Assembly (NCBI RefSeq): GCF_900110295.1
Contig: NZ_FODF01000002.1
Coordinates: 62,001-126,000 of the forward strand
Source of the DNA: Peptostreptococcus russellii
Lineage (GTDB): Bacteria; Bacillota; Clostridia; Peptostreptococcales; Peptostreptococcaceae
DNA: 64,000 nucleotides
Reading direction: 5' to 3'
Both the position numbers and the translations under genes were made by a program. Below, piece after piece: positions 17,559 through 41,916 of this stretch (position 1 is the first letter of the stretch; every line of letters begins with the position of its first letter). The notes under the pieces are model-generated. The model worked only from the letters and a program-made list of their open reading frames with translations. It had not been told where the DNA came from and made no database searches.

Positions 17559-18869
17559 TTAGTCTTCAAATACAGTCTGTCCGTCAACTTCAGTATTTAA
17601 TGCCTTTAGGGCTTTTTCAACTAACTTTCTTCTTAGAGCCTTTTCTTCATCATGATCTAAAGCAGGGTTTCCAAGAGGGTGAGGTATAGCTATTGTTGGA
17701 ACTATTCTGTTAGCACCAACTGTTAATGAAATAGGAACAACTGTACACATATGTACTACTGGTAGACCAGCTCTTTCTATTTCCTTTACCATCGTTGCAC
17801 CGCAACGAGTACAAGTACCTCACGTAGAAGTCATAATAACTGCATCTACTCCATCAGCTATTAACTTCTGTGCATATCCAGCAGCGAATGCCTTTGCAGA
17901 TGCAACAGCAGTACCATTACCAACAGTTGTGTAGAACTTGTTGTGTAATTCTCCTATTACGCCTTCCTTTTCAAGATCTCTTAATACATCTACTGGAAGA
18001 ACTCTGTCTGAATCTTCATTAGCATATGATGGGTCATATCCACCATGAGCTGTTTCCCAACCTTCTTCAGTAAGGTCCATTACACCAGTGATATCATATT
18101 CACCATACTTAGTAGCATTTGATGATTCTATTCTATCAGGGTTACCTTTTGGAACTATACCACCTGATGTACAAAGCGCGATCTTACACTTTGATAGGTC
18201 CTTAACTGCTGGATTTGGATCTACTCTATCGAAGTTTGGCATTGGATATTCTGTTACGAATTCTTCACCATTTATCTTCTTTATAAGCATATCAACAGCT
18301 CTCTTTGAACCTCTTTCTTCAGCGAAGTAGTTTACTCTTACACCCTTTTCGATGTATCCTTCTTCTGCTGGAGAACCTATTTCTTCGCCCTTAGCTAATT
18401 TAGCACCTAACTTAGCTATCTTTGGAAGAGCTTTTCTCATACCAGCTGCAGAATTTGCTGTTTCAACTATGTATAAATCTTTCTTATACATATCTGCACC
18501 TGGGTTTTCAACGTACATACCTGTTAAACAAGGTATATTTAATTCATTCTTAACAACGCTAGTAATTGTACCACAAGCAACACCGTATCTACCTGCATTA
18601 AATGCTGGTCCAGCTATAAATAACTGTGGATCAAATTCCTTAATCATTGCTAAAACTTCTTCACTTGCTTCATCTATATTTTCATTGAAATAACTATCAC
18701 CACAAACTACTGTAGCAACTATTTCAAATTCTTCACCTAATTTTTTGCCTAATTGCACACTAACTGGAGGAAGTTCTTTTAAAACCGCTGGTTCTACATC
18801 GGCCTTTTCTTCTCCACCTATTCCTGCAAAGAATTGGTTTACATAATGAACTACTCTAATCTTTGACAT
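17559..18869 (-). CDS. grdB: Glycine reductase selenoprotein B, subunit gamma (GrdB)
   Basis: A 436-residue substrate-specific subunit of protein B that, with the GrdE pyruvoyl subunits, binds glycine as a Schiff base and passes a carboxymethyl group to selenoprotein A. The frame holds one in-frame TGA at 17820-17822, read as selenocysteine U350 in the motif T-S-T-U-G-T-C-T-R-C-G, the UxxCxxC motif of GrdB. Downstream the frame stays open to 17559 with conserved sequence (MVKEIERAGLPVVHMCT). Simple gene callers would split this into two pieces. It starts 21 bases after grdA. Confidence 0.97.
17793..17807 (-). promoter_or_regulatory. Candidate SECIS hairpin of grdB
   Basis: Twelve bases after the TGA codon the mRNA reads CGTTGC-GGT-GCAACG, a six-base-pair stem with a G-rich loop. 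Bacterial SECIS elements lie at this distance, just 3' of the UGA, with G in the apical loop. SelB recognition is inferred. Confidence 0.65.
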
Positions 18870-23057: not shown

Positions 23058-23160
23058 TTCAGAGACACGTCCAATTCTACTACTTTTACCTGAGAAATTC
23101 ACAATGTTTCTTGACATGAAACATTACTTGTCCCTTCGGTGGCTAACGCTCTCTCATAGA
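23058..23160 (-). promoter_or_regulatory. Glycine riboswitch aptamer (gcvT type)
   Basis: The minus strand carries the conserved core: GAGAGAGCGTTAGCC, then ACCGAAGGGACAAGTAA, a variable stem (AATGTTTC with GAAACATT), TTTCTCAGGTAAAAG, and GAATTGGACGTGTCTCTG closing P1. This matches the glycine aptamer. Only one aptamer is seen. It stands between the operon promoter and a terminator, so glycine presumably allows transcription of the glycine-consuming operon. Confidence 0.93.
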
Positions 23161-23191
23161 ATCTTCTTCCGTCTTATTTATATGTTCAGTT

Positions 23192-37225: not shown

Positions 37226-37298
37226 TATATAGGCTATGTTATAAGAAAAGCGACAAACCTAATAGTTTGCCGCAATCTTTAAGGACCGTATATTAATA

Positions 37299-38072
37299 CT
37301 ATTTTTCTTTATTATACTTGCTTTCTGCTATTAAAGAAACTCCTAAAGCACCTGCATACCTTCCATCTTCAGATGTATTAACAGGCAACTTTATTTTCTT
37401 TGAAAGAGAGTCAGCAAAAAACTTGCTGTGACTCAATCCTCCTGTAAGCACCACATATTCAGAATTTGCAAACTTACTGAATAGTTGTGCCACCTTACCA
37501 GCTACCGAATCTACTACTCCTGCAGCTATATCTGCTCTACTTCTACCTTCTCCGATATAGTTTATAATTTCGGATTCAGCAAATACTGTACATAGAGAGC
37601 TTATCGGCAGTATTTCACCTTCCATAGCTAGGTTGAACAAATCATCTATGCTTACTCCAAGTCTATTTGCCATAACTTCGATAAATTTCCCTGTTCCAGC
37701 GGAGCACTTGTCATTCATTAGGAAATCCGATACAAAACCATTTTCAATTTTTATGATTTTCGTATCCTGTCCACCAATATCTACTATTGTGCAATTCTTA
37801 CCTACCATTTCATAGCCACCTTTTCCATGGCAAGTAATTTCAGTAACTACATAATCTGCAAAATCTACGGCTACTCTTCCATAACCTGTAGCTCCTACTA
37901 TTACCTCATCACTTTCAACATCTATTTCATCTTCCATTAATCTCTCTACTATTGTACTTGCAGTTTCCTTACTGCTCCAACCTGTAGGTATTACAAACTT
38001 AGATGTTGAATCTTCTTTTCTAGCCACAACTTTAGATGCTGTTGAACCAATATCTATCCCTACATAAATCAT
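37299..38072 (-). CDS. 2-hydroxyacyl-CoA dehydratase-type activase (BadF/BadG/HgdC family)
   Basis: A 257-residue ASKHA-fold ATPase that injects one low-potential electron into a partner protein. It has IYVGIDIGSTASKVV, VDIGGQDTKIIK, MNDKCSAGTGKFIEVMANRL with the first cluster Cys, and ISSLCTVFAESE with the second; each subunit supplies two cysteines to a [4Fe-4S] cluster shared across the dimer. The start is ATG 38072 behind GGGAGG. It is third in an operon after the double-cubane protein and DUF3343, so its partner is probably the double-cubane protein. Confidence 0.93.
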   Translation of the reverse strand: MIYVGIDIGSTASKVVARKEDSTSKFVIPTGWSSKETASTIVERLMEDEIDVESDEVIVGATGYGRVAVDFADYVVTEITCHGKGGYEMVGKNCTIVDIGGQDTKIIKIENGFVSDFLMNDKCSAGTGKFIEVMANRLGVSIDDLFNLAMEGEILPISSLCTVFAESEIINYIGEGRSRADIAAGVVDSVAGKVAQLFSKFANSEYVVLTGGLSHSKFFADSLSKKIKLPVNTSEDGRYAGALGVSLIAESKYNKEK

Positions 38073-38086
38073 ATTACACATCCTCC

Positions 38087-38344
38087 CTAACAATATCTAT
38101 CTCTATTAGGATTGATGTCCCTTTCTATAGATTCTATTGTTATTATTTCGATATCATTTTCTTCAACTACTCTTCTTACTTCATCTAGTTCATTTTCTTC
38201 AACTATGAGAGATATACCACAACACTTACTCAAAGATCTAGGTGTTGGAGATATCATTGACTGAAGTCCATTTTCCTTTAATTTAGAATTTAACTTCAGA
38301 CCATTCTCATGGTTGTTAAATAAAACGTAAAAAACTTTTTCCAT
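38087..38344 (-). CDS. DUF3343 protein, putative Se/S carrier-like
   Basis: An 85-residue protein with the MISPTPRSLSKCCGISLIVEEN-type core (here two adjacent cysteines, C41-C42, at the family's conserved Cys) and a C-terminal Cys85. Comparative genomics has tied DUF3343 to selenium use in bacteria, and annotations call it a putative Se/S carrier; this is not biochemically proven. It is between the double-cubane protein (13 bases upstream) and the activase, so all three are one transcript. Confidence 0.85.
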   Translation of the reverse strand: MEKVFYVLFNNHENGLKLNSKLKENGLQSMISPTPRSLSKCCGISLIVEENELDEVRRVVEENDIEIITIESIERDINPNRDRYC

Positions 38345-38356
38345 TTCTTACACTAA

Positions 38357-39631
38357 CTACCTTTCTAGCATTTCTATAAATGCTCCAACTCTTGTTCTCA
38401 ACTGCTGAACATCAGAGTCAGTATAATCTGTTTCAATTCCAAGTACAGGAATACCAGCTTCCTTTAAAGCTCTTTCTACTAAGAATCCTTCTGTGTCATA
38501 TAGATTACAGAACTTAAGATTTATATCTATAACGCCATCTATATCATATTCCTTGCAAAGTCTTAATATATCATCTATTCTACCCTGATTAGGAGTAAAG
38601 CATGCACAGTTTATTCCCATATATCTTTCTGCTAATGCATCTATCTGTTCTTCAACAGTATCCTTAGTTTCGTCAACTAATCTTTCAAAATATCTTGTAC
38701 CAGTACACATTTCTTCACAAACAACCGCTCCACCAGAAGTTTCTATTATATTGTGCATCTTCCAGTTTGGTATTGCAAGAGGTGTACCTGCAAGAAGTAT
38801 TCTCTTTGTTCCTTCTGGGAATACACTTACTCCCTCTTCCACTCTCTTTTCAAGTTCATCACATAACTTATTTGTCATTTCAGCAAATCTAGTTGGATCA
38901 TCATAGAAAGCTATCTGAGAAATTAACAGACAGTCTTTTCCTGAAATAGGTATATTCTTATTCTTTCTGAATGAATATAGTCTATCAAGAGCACGTCTCT
39001 TGTTGTTTATTAATTTTATAGAATCTGCAAGTTTTTCTGCAGTAACTTTATTACCCGTAAAGTCTTCAACCTTATTCTTTAGCTCAGTTATTTCTTCAGC
39101 CCAAGCCTTGTAATCCTTGCTTCTCTTCATCTGTGGAAGATCCATTACATACATAGGAACATCTTCTCCAAGAATTTCCCACGCCTTCTTCTTGCCATCA
39201 CAAGTAGTTTCACCTATATACATATCCGCTATCTTAAAGAATGGACATGTACTGTCTAATCTCGCTCCTACTGATGCCTTTATTAATGGACATGTATTAG
39301 TTGGAAGAACCTTTTCCCCTCCTGGAACCCAGAACTGGGAACCGCCACATAAACCTGTTGCTATGCCGTCTGCAGCAAATATAACTTCATCTGGAACATA
39401 CACACAGAATGTACCGAATACCTTCTTTCCATCCTTCTGAGCCTGTACTAATTCAGCTGGTCTTACCCCATGTATTTCAGATACAACAAAGTCGAAGTAC
39501 CCCATATTCTCAGGTCTATTCTTCTGAGATAAATAAACATCTGTAAATGCCATCGGAAGCACTTCACATAGCTGATCATGAGTCTCAAGATCCATTCCTA
39601 ATTCTTTCCACATTTCTCTGTAATCTGCCAT
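38357..39631 (-). CDS. Double-cubane-cluster anaerobic reductase (2-hydroxyacyl-CoA dehydratase family)
   Basis: A 424-residue single-subunit homologue of 2-hydroxyacyl-CoA dehydratases. Cysteines in GTFCVYVP, ATGLCGGSQF, TNTCPLIK, STCPFFK, VVCEEMCTG, INCACFTPN and LKFCNLYDTEG are in positions expected to hold the [8Fe-9S] double cubane described for DCCP of Carboxydothermus. Those enzymes reduce small, hard-to-reduce substrates with electrons from an ATP-dependent activase, which is encoded two genes downstream. The physiological substrate is unknown. ATG 39631 follows GGGGAGG. Confidence 0.88.
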   Translation of the reverse strand: MADYREMWKELGMDLETHDQLCEVLPMAFTDVYLSQKNRPENMGYFDFVVSEIHGVRPAELVQAQKDGKKVFGTFCVYVPDEVIFAADGIATGLCGGSQFWVPGGEKVLPTNTCPLIKASVGARLDSTCPFFKIADMYIGETTCDGKKKAWEILGEDVPMYVMDLPQMKRSKDYKAWAEEITELKNKVEDFTGNKVTAEKLADSIKLINNKRRALDRLYSFRKNKNIPISGKDCLLISQIAFYDDPTRFAEMTNKLCDELEKRVEEGVSVFPEGTKRILLAGTPLAIPNWKMHNIIETSGGAVVCEEMCTGTRYFERLVDETKDTVEEQIDALAERYMGINCACFTPNQGRIDDILRLCKEYDIDGVIDINLKFCNLYDTEGFLVERALKEAGIPVLGIETDYTDSDVQQLRTRVGAFIEMLER

Positions 39632-39877: not shown

Positions 39878-41719
39878 TTATATACATATATTTTCTTCAA
39901 CGGATTTAATAATATAGTCTATATCGTATTTGTTATTGAAATAACCTATAGAAAATCTAATACTTCCATTTGGAAAAGTGTCCTCTGCCATATGTGTGCA
40001 AGGTGAACACTGTATTCCAACTCTAGTCATAATATGATTGATCATATCTAGATTAAATGCTACCATTGCATCATCTTGTCCACTTATTATTACAGAACAA
40101 AATGAACCACTACCCCTAGCATCTACATTTTCTATTTTAGAAAGACCTTCTCTAAGCTTTTTGCCCAGGATATGTTTCTTTTCTATTATTTTATCTAATC
40201 CAACATAATCTATAAAATCTAAAGCCGCCCCTGTTCCTATAATTGCTGGTAAATTCATGGTACCTGCTTCAAATTTATCCGGTATCATTAAAGGCATACT
40301 AGGACTATTGGATTGACTTCCTGTTCCTCCGTATATCAATGGATCTATTTCTTTTGCGATTTCATTATTTATAATCAAATGCGCTAGGCCTTCCGGTCCC
40401 ATTAATCCGATATGAGATGATACTACTATAGCATGAGCTTTGAGTTCTTCTACATTTATTTCACGCTCGCAAGCTGCCTGAACTGCATCTATAAAAAAAA
40501 TAATATTTTTTCTAGCACATACTTTGCCCACTTCTATAGCCTTTCTATTATAAAAACCTGTAATATTATCTACTAAAGTCAAAAATACTACTTTTGTCTT
40601 ATCGCCGATTAAGTTTTCAAAATCAGAAATCTTATACTCATATTCTAATAAATCTTTTAAATCGTCTCCACTATTTTTTGAATCTAAATTTTCATTACTT
40701 CCTAAAATAAAACTTTTTATCTCTGCCTTTCTAGACTTAGATATAAGAAGTTTATCCCTGTTATTATTATCACTACTTGAAGACCATACCTTTATATTGA
40801 TGCCTTTTTTTTCAAGATACTGCAAAGTTCTCCATGTAGAGTTATGCATTCTATCATCTACTATTATCTCATCACCTTCTTTTAATACTCCTCTTAAAAT
40901 AAGGTTTATAAGTTCTGTTGCAGAAGATCCGAAAACACAATTATATCCCTTAGGCGAATTCGTAAATTTAAGCATCTTATCTCTTACATCTATAACTTTT
41001 GAAGATAGTTTATAGGCCTTCATATATGTCCCTCTATTTATACTAAAAGATTCATTATCAATAAACTCCGACATACTTTTGGCAAGATTGGGAGCTTTTG
41101 GAAAAGAACTTGAGGCATTATCTATATAAATTTCTTTACATATTACTTTTCTTAGAGAATCTAAATCAATCTTTGTATGAAATTCTCCATTTTCGCCACA
41201 TGGATCCACTTGTAACTTTTCTAATTTATCTATGAAGCTTTGCTCATAAACTTGACCAATTAAATCTTCTGATAGTGTGCTTTCATCTATTTTTACAATA
41301 TTTGCCTTTATGGATGTAGATATAAACTCTTTGGCAATACTTTTTCTATCTTCAAATAACAATGGGTGTATACACTCTATTCCTATATTCTGACATCTTC
41401 TATTGTTCCATTTAATATGTTCTACTATGTCTATATCTCCGAAAATACAAGCTTGTGCACCAAGTTTTTTAGCTTCAGACAATGCTTTTTCAAATTTTTC
41501 TTCATAGTCTTCTACATTTGTATCTGTAAAAATAAGTTCACATCTAAATATCTCTGCTGCCTTCTTAAAATACTCTCTTTTTATATTGTGAGTCCATGAA
41601 GATTCCTTATCTTCCTTACCAGATACAATAATAGCTACTATTCTATGACCCCTATCAAGCATTCTTTTAATTGCCAATGTTGAATCCTTACCACCACTAA
41701 AGGATGCTGCAAATTCCAT
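39878..41719 (-). CDS. Fusion of Dph6-like ATP pyrophosphatase and class-V aminotransferase (cysteine-desulfurase-like) with lysine-to-isoleucine change
   Basis: A 613-residue two-domain protein. Residues 1-190 form an N-type ATP pyrophosphatase with FSGGKDSTL (residues 7-15, P-loop) and EHIKWNNRRC, as in Dph6-like enzymes. Residues about 193-613 are a class-V aminotransferase fold of the EF2568 type: IDNASSSFPKAPN, SSATELINLIL, FIDAVQAA (D411 for PLP N1), EAGTMNLPAIIGTGAAL, catalytic-type Cys in GIQCSPCTH (C571 or C574), and IRFSIGYFNN (R588). The usual HKGLLGPQG becomes HIGLMGPEG: the PLP lysine is isoleucine I437, codon ATC at 40409-40411. It follows tRNA-Sec on the same strand. A role in selenium or sulfur transfer is inferred. 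Confidence 0.85.
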   Translation of the reverse strand: MEFAASFSGGKDSTLAIKRMLDRGHRIVAIIVSGKEDKESSWTHNIKREYFKKAAEIFRCELIFTDTNVEDYEEKFEKALSEAKKLGAQACIFGDIDIVEHIKWNNRRCQNIGIECIHPLLFEDRKSIAKEFISTSIKANIVKIDESTLSEDLIGQVYEQSFIDKLEKLQVDPCGENGEFHTKIDLDSLRKVICKEIYIDNASSSFPKAPNLAKSMSEFIDNESFSINRGTYMKAYKLSSKVIDVRDKMLKFTNSPKGYNCVFGSSATELINLILRGVLKEGDEIIVDDRMHNSTWRTLQYLEKKGINIKVWSSSSDNNNRDKLLISKSRKAEIKSFILGSNENLDSKNSGDDLKDLLEYEYKISDFENLIGDKTKVVFLTLVDNITGFYNRKAIEVGKVCARKNIIFFIDAVQAACEREINVEELKAHAIVVSSHIGLMGPEGLAHLIINNEIAKEIDPLIYGGTGSQSNSPSMPLMIPDKFEAGTMNLPAIIGTGAALDFIDYVGLDKIIEKKHILGKKLREGLSKIENVDARGSGSFCSVIISGQDDAMVAFNLDMINHIMTRVGIQCSPCTHMAEDTFPNGSIRFSIGYFNNKYDIDYIIKSVEENICI

Positions 41720-41767: not shown

Positions 41768-41805
41768 AAAAAACTACTGATTTTAGTATAACATAAAATC
41801 AGTAG
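41768..41805 (-). terminator. Terminator after tRNA-Sec
   Basis: CTACTGATTTTA (41774-41785) pairs with TAAAATCAGTAG (41794-41805); on the minus strand it is followed by TTTTTT. It separates the tRNA gene from the fusion gene. Confidence 0.88.
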
Positions 41806-41819
41806 TAAAATTCATAATT

Positions 41820-41916
41820 TGGCGGGAATGCGTGAGAATCGAACTCACCCAAGAGGCTCCTAACCCCTCATACTAGTTTTGAAGACTAGAGGGCACACCA
41901 GCACCCATTCACCCCC
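41820..41916 (-). tRNA. selC: tRNA-Sec (UCA anticodon)
   Basis: On the minus strand a 97-base tRNA with CCA encoded. The anticodon arm CTAGT-CTTCAAA-ACTAG shows anticodon TCA; the T arm is GTGAG-TTCGATT-CTCAC; the acceptor stem is long (GGGGGTGA with GCATTCCC, two wobble pairs and one mismatch); the D stem has six pairs with a four-base loop (GGGTGC-TGGT-GTGCCC); and a long variable arm (about 20 bases) is present. These are the hallmarks of bacterial tRNA-Sec. It reads the UGA codons of grdA and grdB in this window. Confidence 0.95.

Follow-up and report, generated by a model that had tools for sequence, protein, structure and literature searches.

A single gene of Peptostreptococcus joins a PP-loop ATPase domain to a domain with the fold of a PLP-dependent desulfurase or selenocysteine (Sec) lyase, in which isoleucine stands at the position of the Schiff-base lysine. 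The locus raises two questions: what such a fold does with its lysine replaced, and whether the two halves of the protein serve one pathway or two. The gene lies in a stretch of 64,000 nucleotides (the window), and its parts are as follows.

39878..41719, minus strand: fusion gene, 613 aa, defined by its open reading frame and by Pfam and NCBIfam matches; architecture common to 7 of 9 Peptostreptococcus genomes
41150..41719, minus strand: N-terminal DUF71/PF01902 PP-loop domain, aa 1 to about 190, with SGGKDS and CGENGEFHT; Pfam and structure matches
39881..41137, minus strand: C-terminal EF2568/Sec-lyase-fold domain, aa about 195 to 613, retaining Cys571 and the larger part of the conserved pocket, with the lysine replaced
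40409..40411, minus strand: codon ATC for Ile437, at the Schiff-base lysine position by alignment with lysine-bearing sequences

The frame begins with ATG, and a GGGGGG run lies just 5' of this start. Pfam placed PF01902 at residues 1–183 and matched Aminotran_5 to two segments, with the better match at 361–602. The N-terminal half matched the solved DUF71 structures 3rjz, 3rk0, 3rk1, and 2d13, and the C-terminal half matched solved structures of SufS-type and other cysteine desulfurases. The NCBIfam model of EF2568-type enzymes (TIGR01977) scored 281.8 bits on the whole protein, below its curated cut-off of 377, and none of the eight isoleucine-bearing copies described below exceeded that cut-off. 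A preliminary description of the DNA had reported the frame, the fusion, SGGKDS, D411, C571, C574, R588, and Ile437 (ATC), and all of these were confirmed in the window. It had also taken both C571 and C574 to be catalytic-type cysteines; only C571 is conserved among the fusions, and C574 varies.

Seven of nine Peptostreptococcus genomes (G000–G008) carry the fusion, with linkers that differ in length. The lyase-fold domain occurs alone in G007 (385 aa, with no DUF71 half), and the DUF71 domain occurs alone in G004 (194 aa, with no isoleucine domain). Because the fusion recurs in seven of the nine genomes with variable linkers, the earlier concern that it might be an artifact of a lost stop codon between the domains can be set aside. 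A phage origin is likewise unsupported: when the fusion was used as a tblastn query, 32 of 50,697 phage records gave a match, none covering 80% of the query, and the five matches listed of these 32 were 22%–28% identical, mostly along the lyase half.

We compared position 437 in an alignment of the query with 121 matching open reading frames (BLAST E up to 1e-8; minimum length 200 aa). Its 13 isoleucine rows represent 8 distinct genes, all from Peptostreptococcus and some fetched twice, and its 109 lysine rows are all distinct sequences, more distant SufS-type paralogues included. Isoleucine was found in all eight Peptostreptococcus genomes that carry the domain, and lysine in each of the 109 other rows. 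The motif HKGLLGPQG of EF2568-type enzymes is replaced in the window protein by SSHIGLMGPEG. A sequencing error was also excluded, because the isoleucine is present in all eight genomes and is encoded by three different codons (ATT in five copies, ATC in two, and ATA in one). A 71-genome family search returned the eight isoleucine copies at 578–646 bits and the next best match at 362; among the 30 loci read, 8 have isoleucine and 22 lysine. A first contig scan with the single protein as query found no relative, and a wider scan gave 6 isoleucine copies (all from Peptostreptococcus) and 74 lysine copies among the best 80 of 129 relatives; because these 80 were the ones read, the restriction of isoleucine to Peptostreptococcus applies to the sequences read. 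The lysine was most likely replaced by isoleucine once in the genus and then fixed. We found no new alternative lysine in the PLP-site motifs of the isoleucine clade in the alignment. K208 does not vary in either group. The clade favors lysine at K514 (8/8, compared with 11/27 lysine-bearing relatives) and K515 (7/8, compared with 2/27), which are located in a C-terminal stretch.

The PLP-dependent lyase cycle should not run in the C-terminal half because the Schiff-base lysine is missing, and this half is most likely no longer a lyase. Most of the rest of its conserved pocket has been retained. Over 366 columns, in which the 8 isoleucine copies were compared with 27 of the 109 lysine-bearing rows, 39 columns are invariant in the lysine set, 74 in the isoleucine set, and 27 in both (hypergeometric P 1.4e-12 for the overlap). 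The same residue occupies 26 of these 27 columns in both sets, and the only one that has switched is Lys437 to Ile. The kept residues are D200, N201, K208, R229, R246, T268, N272, H292, N293, R297, N385, G388, D411, Q414, H436, G444, G464, G465, G467, P480, E484, G486, R566, C571, G585, and R588. We take the roles of Cys571, Arg588, and the other pocket residues from SufS biochemistry; the catalytic-type Cys571 and the substrate-type Arg588 are unchanged in all eight isoleucine copies. A further 12 columns that are invariant in the lysine set vary in the isoleucine set (T204, G360, S384, G417, L439, G441, G446, P476, T487, G495, L557, and P573); S384 is replaced in the clade by D, N, or E, and G417 by cysteine in seven copies and isoleucine in one. 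The clade also has cysteines of its own at positions 205 (6/8), 261 (7/8), 417 (7/8), and 541 (7/8), which may act as a thiol relay or have a structural role.

For the lyase half, dN was 0.34–0.57 in five species pairs (0.34–0.45 in the four pairs with dS of 1.3–1.8); dS was non-computable in the fifth pair and near saturation in the others, with dN below dS. Purifying selection has thus most likely acted on the catalytic-type cysteine and on the greater part of the conserved pocket. In a midpoint-rooted tree of 38 rows, the isoleucine domains form one clade (support 100/100) on a long stem (0.94), and their nearest relatives are the copies at L105 and L121, followed by those of G030 and G036. 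Between the window and P. russellii, the halves of the fusion are 56% and 59% identical, compared with 81%–90% for the adjacent UDG, double-cubane reductase, and activase genes, 66% for NusG_II, and 69% for ApbE. A separate pattern was seen in the two close species G003 (L060:9042-10874) and G008 (L055:8832-10763): the neighboring reductase is about 99% identical (dS 0.21), and the fusion halves are just 69% and 55% identical, with a dS of 1.76 for the lyase half and a non-computable dS for the PP-loop half. This looks like an in-place exchange of the fusion gene for a distant allele.

The gene stands in a compact set, all on the same strand, that begins with tRNA-Sec.

41820..41916, minus strand: tRNA-Sec (Rfam RF01852 match at 41824..41916)
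41773..41806, minus strand: terminator-like hairpin (13 pairs; consensus match only) that separates tRNA-Sec from the fusion gene
38357..39631, minus strand: double-cubane-cluster anaerobic reductase (DCCP; NF040772, 508.9 bits, cut-off 350)
38087..38344, minus strand: Se_S_carrier/DUF3343 small protein (PF11823)
37299..38093, minus strand: acyl-CoA-dehydratase-type activase (TIGR00241, over cut-off)
37250..37273, minus strand: terminator-like hairpin closing the gene set (consensus match only)

The RF01852 match bears out the report of a tRNA-Sec beside the fusion gene, where it lies directly upstream. We infer that the activase is the partner of DCCP. The order tRNA-Sec, isoleucine-domain gene, double-cubane reductase, Se/S carrier, and activase was found in all eight Peptostreptococcus genomes with selD, with the exception that G003 has one extra open reading frame after tRNA-Sec (L060:10876-12546, 556 aa), which encodes CW_binding_2 (cell-wall-binding) and C39-type peptidase domains and lies between tRNA-Sec and the fusion gene. 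The window's genome uses selenium, because it has selD (which itself contains TGA) and because the window contains a gene for a GrdB-type glycine reductase subunit (17782-18869) in which codon 350 is an in-frame TGA, with a SECIS_4 element after it. A glycine riboswitch aptamer (23068-23168, minus strand) lies upstream of the glycine reductase genes.

Lysine-bearing copies of the lyase head a matching gene order at L105 (with the activase), at L121 (where the contig ends past the carrier), and at L071 in G030 (with no activase seen), and the double-cubane reductases at these loci are 67%–80% identical to that of the window. In the available part of one study, DUF3343 and a gene set comprising Sec lyase, activase, and dehydratase subunit had been linked to selenium (PMC5322559), and in that of another the double-cubane protein was termed provisionally selenium-linked (PMC10418091).

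The window's genome also encodes two lysine-bearing EF2568-type paralogues that score over the cut-off; the neighbors are YedF and a carrier for one of them and YedE and a carrier for the other. Lyase activity is therefore probably supplied by these other genes. The presence of two intact paralogues, together with the fast overall evolution of the isoleucine domain, would also suit a regulatory or dimerization pseudo-enzyme that pairs with a lysine-bearing paralogue or senses PLP-amino-acid adducts and has no chemistry of its own. A scaffold, however, would not need Cys571 and Arg588, which are unchanged in all eight copies, and we regard this alternative, the best of those considered, as unlikely.

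The retained pocket allows another use of the domain, in which PLP or PMP is bound noncovalently and a PMP-type reaction proceeds with His292 and His436 in acid-base roles and with electrons from the double-cubane reductase. The model for such a reaction would be the lysine-less fold-type I dehydratases ColD and E1, in which the residue is replaced by histidine. H292, D411, Q414, H436, R566, C571, and R588 are all kept in 8/8 copies, and the double-cubane reductase is encoded by the next gene, both in favor of this reading. An aliphatic residue occupies the lysine position here, unlike the histidine of ColD and E1, and no amine source is evident; a reaction of this type is quite unlikely.

We next consider the N-terminal half, which had been described as an intact Dph6-like PP-loop ATPase. 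The PP-loop is intact, and SGGKDS is present in all eight Peptostreptococcus DUF71 copies, but the signature is that of the DUF71-B12 subgroup and not of Dph6. According to the available part of the defining study, the DUF71-B12 signature is ENGE[F/Y]H, that of Dph6 is EGGE/DxE, and the function of DUF71-B12 is itself a prediction (PMC3541065). The corresponding motif is CGENGE[F/Y]HT in seven of the eight copies and CGEKGEYHT in that of G001; thus ENGE[F/Y]H occurs exactly in seven and as EKGEYH in one. Where Dph6 has its motif, the window protein reads CGENGEFHT, and the Dph6 model TIGR03679 scored 81.2 bits against a cut-off of 197.3. Eight free-standing DUF71 copies carry a C-terminal tail motif (DGP[IL]F in seven and SGPLF in one), and this [DS]GP[IL]F tail is missing from all eight Peptostreptococcus copies.

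DUF71-B12 genes would be expected to accompany CbiB and to cluster with B12 transport or cbiB genes. DUF71 and CbiB agree in all nine genomes of the genus, and no such clustering was found among the neighbors scanned; the single CbiB match of the window's genome is on another contig, and Rfam at gathering level detected no cobalamin riboswitch in the window, its only matches being SECIS_4, tRNA-Sec, and the glycine riboswitch. Adjacent genes were scanned for the free-standing DUF71 copies at L062, L065, and L069, and a transporter link was seen only at L062, where DUF71 comes after ABC transporter genes (FecCD-type and ATPase components), possibly those of a corrinoid transporter. Across 81 genomes, 37 have both DUF71 and CbiB, 1 has DUF71 only (G037), 30 have CbiB only, and 13 have neither (Fisher P 0.0009, with the genomes treated as independent, uncorrected for kinship, and a sub-cut-off match in G027 scored as absent); the corresponding counts within the family are 35, 1, 8, and 5 (P 0.003). 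Both genes are absent from G031 and present in two genomes of the same genus.

Within Peptostreptococcus, the two halves track different pathways. DUF71 (PF01902), CbiB (PF03186), and CobS (PF02654) are each present in eight of the nine genomes, and the absentee is always G007, a selenium user that keeps the isoleucine domain. SelD over the cut-off, the Se_S_carrier family, a full-scoring tRNA-Sec (62–65 bits), and the isoleucine domain are likewise each present in eight, and the absentee is always G004, whose best selD (19.9 bits) and tRNA-Sec (34.9 bits) matches are both under the cut-offs and which keeps DUF71 alone. Each dissociation represents one species, and the G004 assembly consists of about 120 contigs. 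The proposed tie between the desulfurase-fold half and selenium is therefore supported: the domain is present in all eight genomes with selD over the cut-off and absent from the one without. G007 has no firm place in the lyase tree or in the trees of neighboring genes; one midpoint-rooted four-gene tree joined it with the window and P. russellii (83/97), and in the DUF71 tree G004 lies outside the seven fused copies (91/91). Given these trees, G007 and G004 may represent either pre-fusion states or later losses of one half.

Because the halves dissociate within the genus and the PP-loop motif is of the DUF71-B12 type, the protein is most likely a two-function fusion and not one adenylating chalcogen-transfer machine. 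The latter had been suggested in the preliminary description as a single thiolation or selenation enzyme. In such an integrated enzyme, the PP-loop half would adenylate a tRNA, a cofactor, or a corrinoid amide, and the isoleucine domain would give sulfur or selenium from Cys571. The gene lies next to tRNA-Sec and a Se/S carrier; this selenium neighborhood, the presence of the fusion in seven of the nine species, and the fast pace at which the two halves evolve in parallel could indicate that they cooperate. The separate occurrence of each half with its own pathway weakens this proposal, as does the DUF71-B12 motif, and we consider it quite unlikely. The long branches and low scores against EF2568 models might instead reflect a decaying lyase half that survives through its fusion to a needed ATPase, but 26 of the 27 shared invariant columns are kept, dN is below dS, and the frame is open in all eight species (one of them without the ATPase half), so that a pseudogene is rejected and decay, already disfavored, is highly improbable.

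The reading that we favor, with a probability of about one in two, is a genus-specific two-function protein that combines a DUF71-B12 ATPase for corrinoid salvage with a lyase-dead half belonging to the selenium operon. The N-terminal half would be a DUF71-B12-type PP-loop ATPase that serves corrinoid (B12) salvage. The C-terminal half would have as its ancestor the PLP-dependent cysteine desulfurase/selenocysteine lyase found elsewhere at the head of the operon of EF2568-type lyase, double-cubane reductase, Se/S carrier, and activase, and would act as a noncatalytic partner that accepts selenium or sulfur as a persulfide or perselenide on Cys571. With the lysine missing, Cys571 would most likely receive the chalcogen from an intact lysine-bearing paralogue or from the small carrier, and the domain might present it to the neighboring ATP-driven reductase for delivery to SelD. 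A PLP-independent sulfur or selenium carrier or relay, as first suggested, is the most natural interpretation of a kept cysteine beside a fixed replacement of lysine by isoleucine; the version in which the protein is an adenylating enzyme is not retained. In a sharper form of the relay, which is improbable as it stands, the lysine-less fold would be a chalcogen-holding substrate: the Cys571 perselenide would be reduced by the reductase and activase to selenide for SelD, and removal of the lysine would block the domain's own use of cysteine or selenocysteine.

If the C-terminal half has been put to another use in this way, it is an unusually clean natural case, as the cofactor-anchoring lysine is the sole switched column among those invariant on both sides. 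The role of the selenium operon, with its double-cubane reductase, activase, and DUF3343 carrier, is a predicted one, and the isoleucine-domain protein gives a way to approach it. The gene also carries a warning against guilt by fusion, as the patterns of gene loss within the genus suggest that B12 salvage and selenium use are each served by a different half. In the open-access literature we found nothing on point for a desulfurase pseudo-enzyme or a lysine-lacking desulfurase, for a PP-loop/desulfurase fusion with selenium, or for a Peptostreptococcus selenoprotein with a cysteine desulfurase; in the available part of PMC6522883, "pseudoenzyme" appears in a cited title about another protein.

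Three known systems resemble parts of this locus. The C-terminal half shares with EF2568-type desulfurases/Sec lyases (TIGR01977, NF040779) its fold family, the catalytic-type cysteine, the substrate-type arginine, and the conserved Asp, Gln, and His, and the lyases of this type at L105, L121, and L071 have the same operon partners as the fusion gene. The fusion clade differs from them in the replacement of Lys by Ile (8/8), in its scores below the cut-off, and in the fusion to DUF71 (7/8). With the DUF71-B12 subgroup of COG2102/PF01902, as described in the available part of PMC3541065, the N-terminal half shares SGGKDS, ENGE[F/Y]H (7/8), and agreement with CbiB (9/9 genomes), whereas it is joined to a lyase fold, lies in a selenium neighborhood, lacks the [DS]GP[IL]F tail, and reads EKGEYH in G001. 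Finally, table 1 of PMC5322559 lists a Slackia selenium cluster of Sec lyase, DUF3343, activase, and dehydratase subunit, in which the same kinds of genes are linked; in contrast to that cluster, the lyase of the present gene set lacks the lysine and has an ATPase domain at its N terminus.
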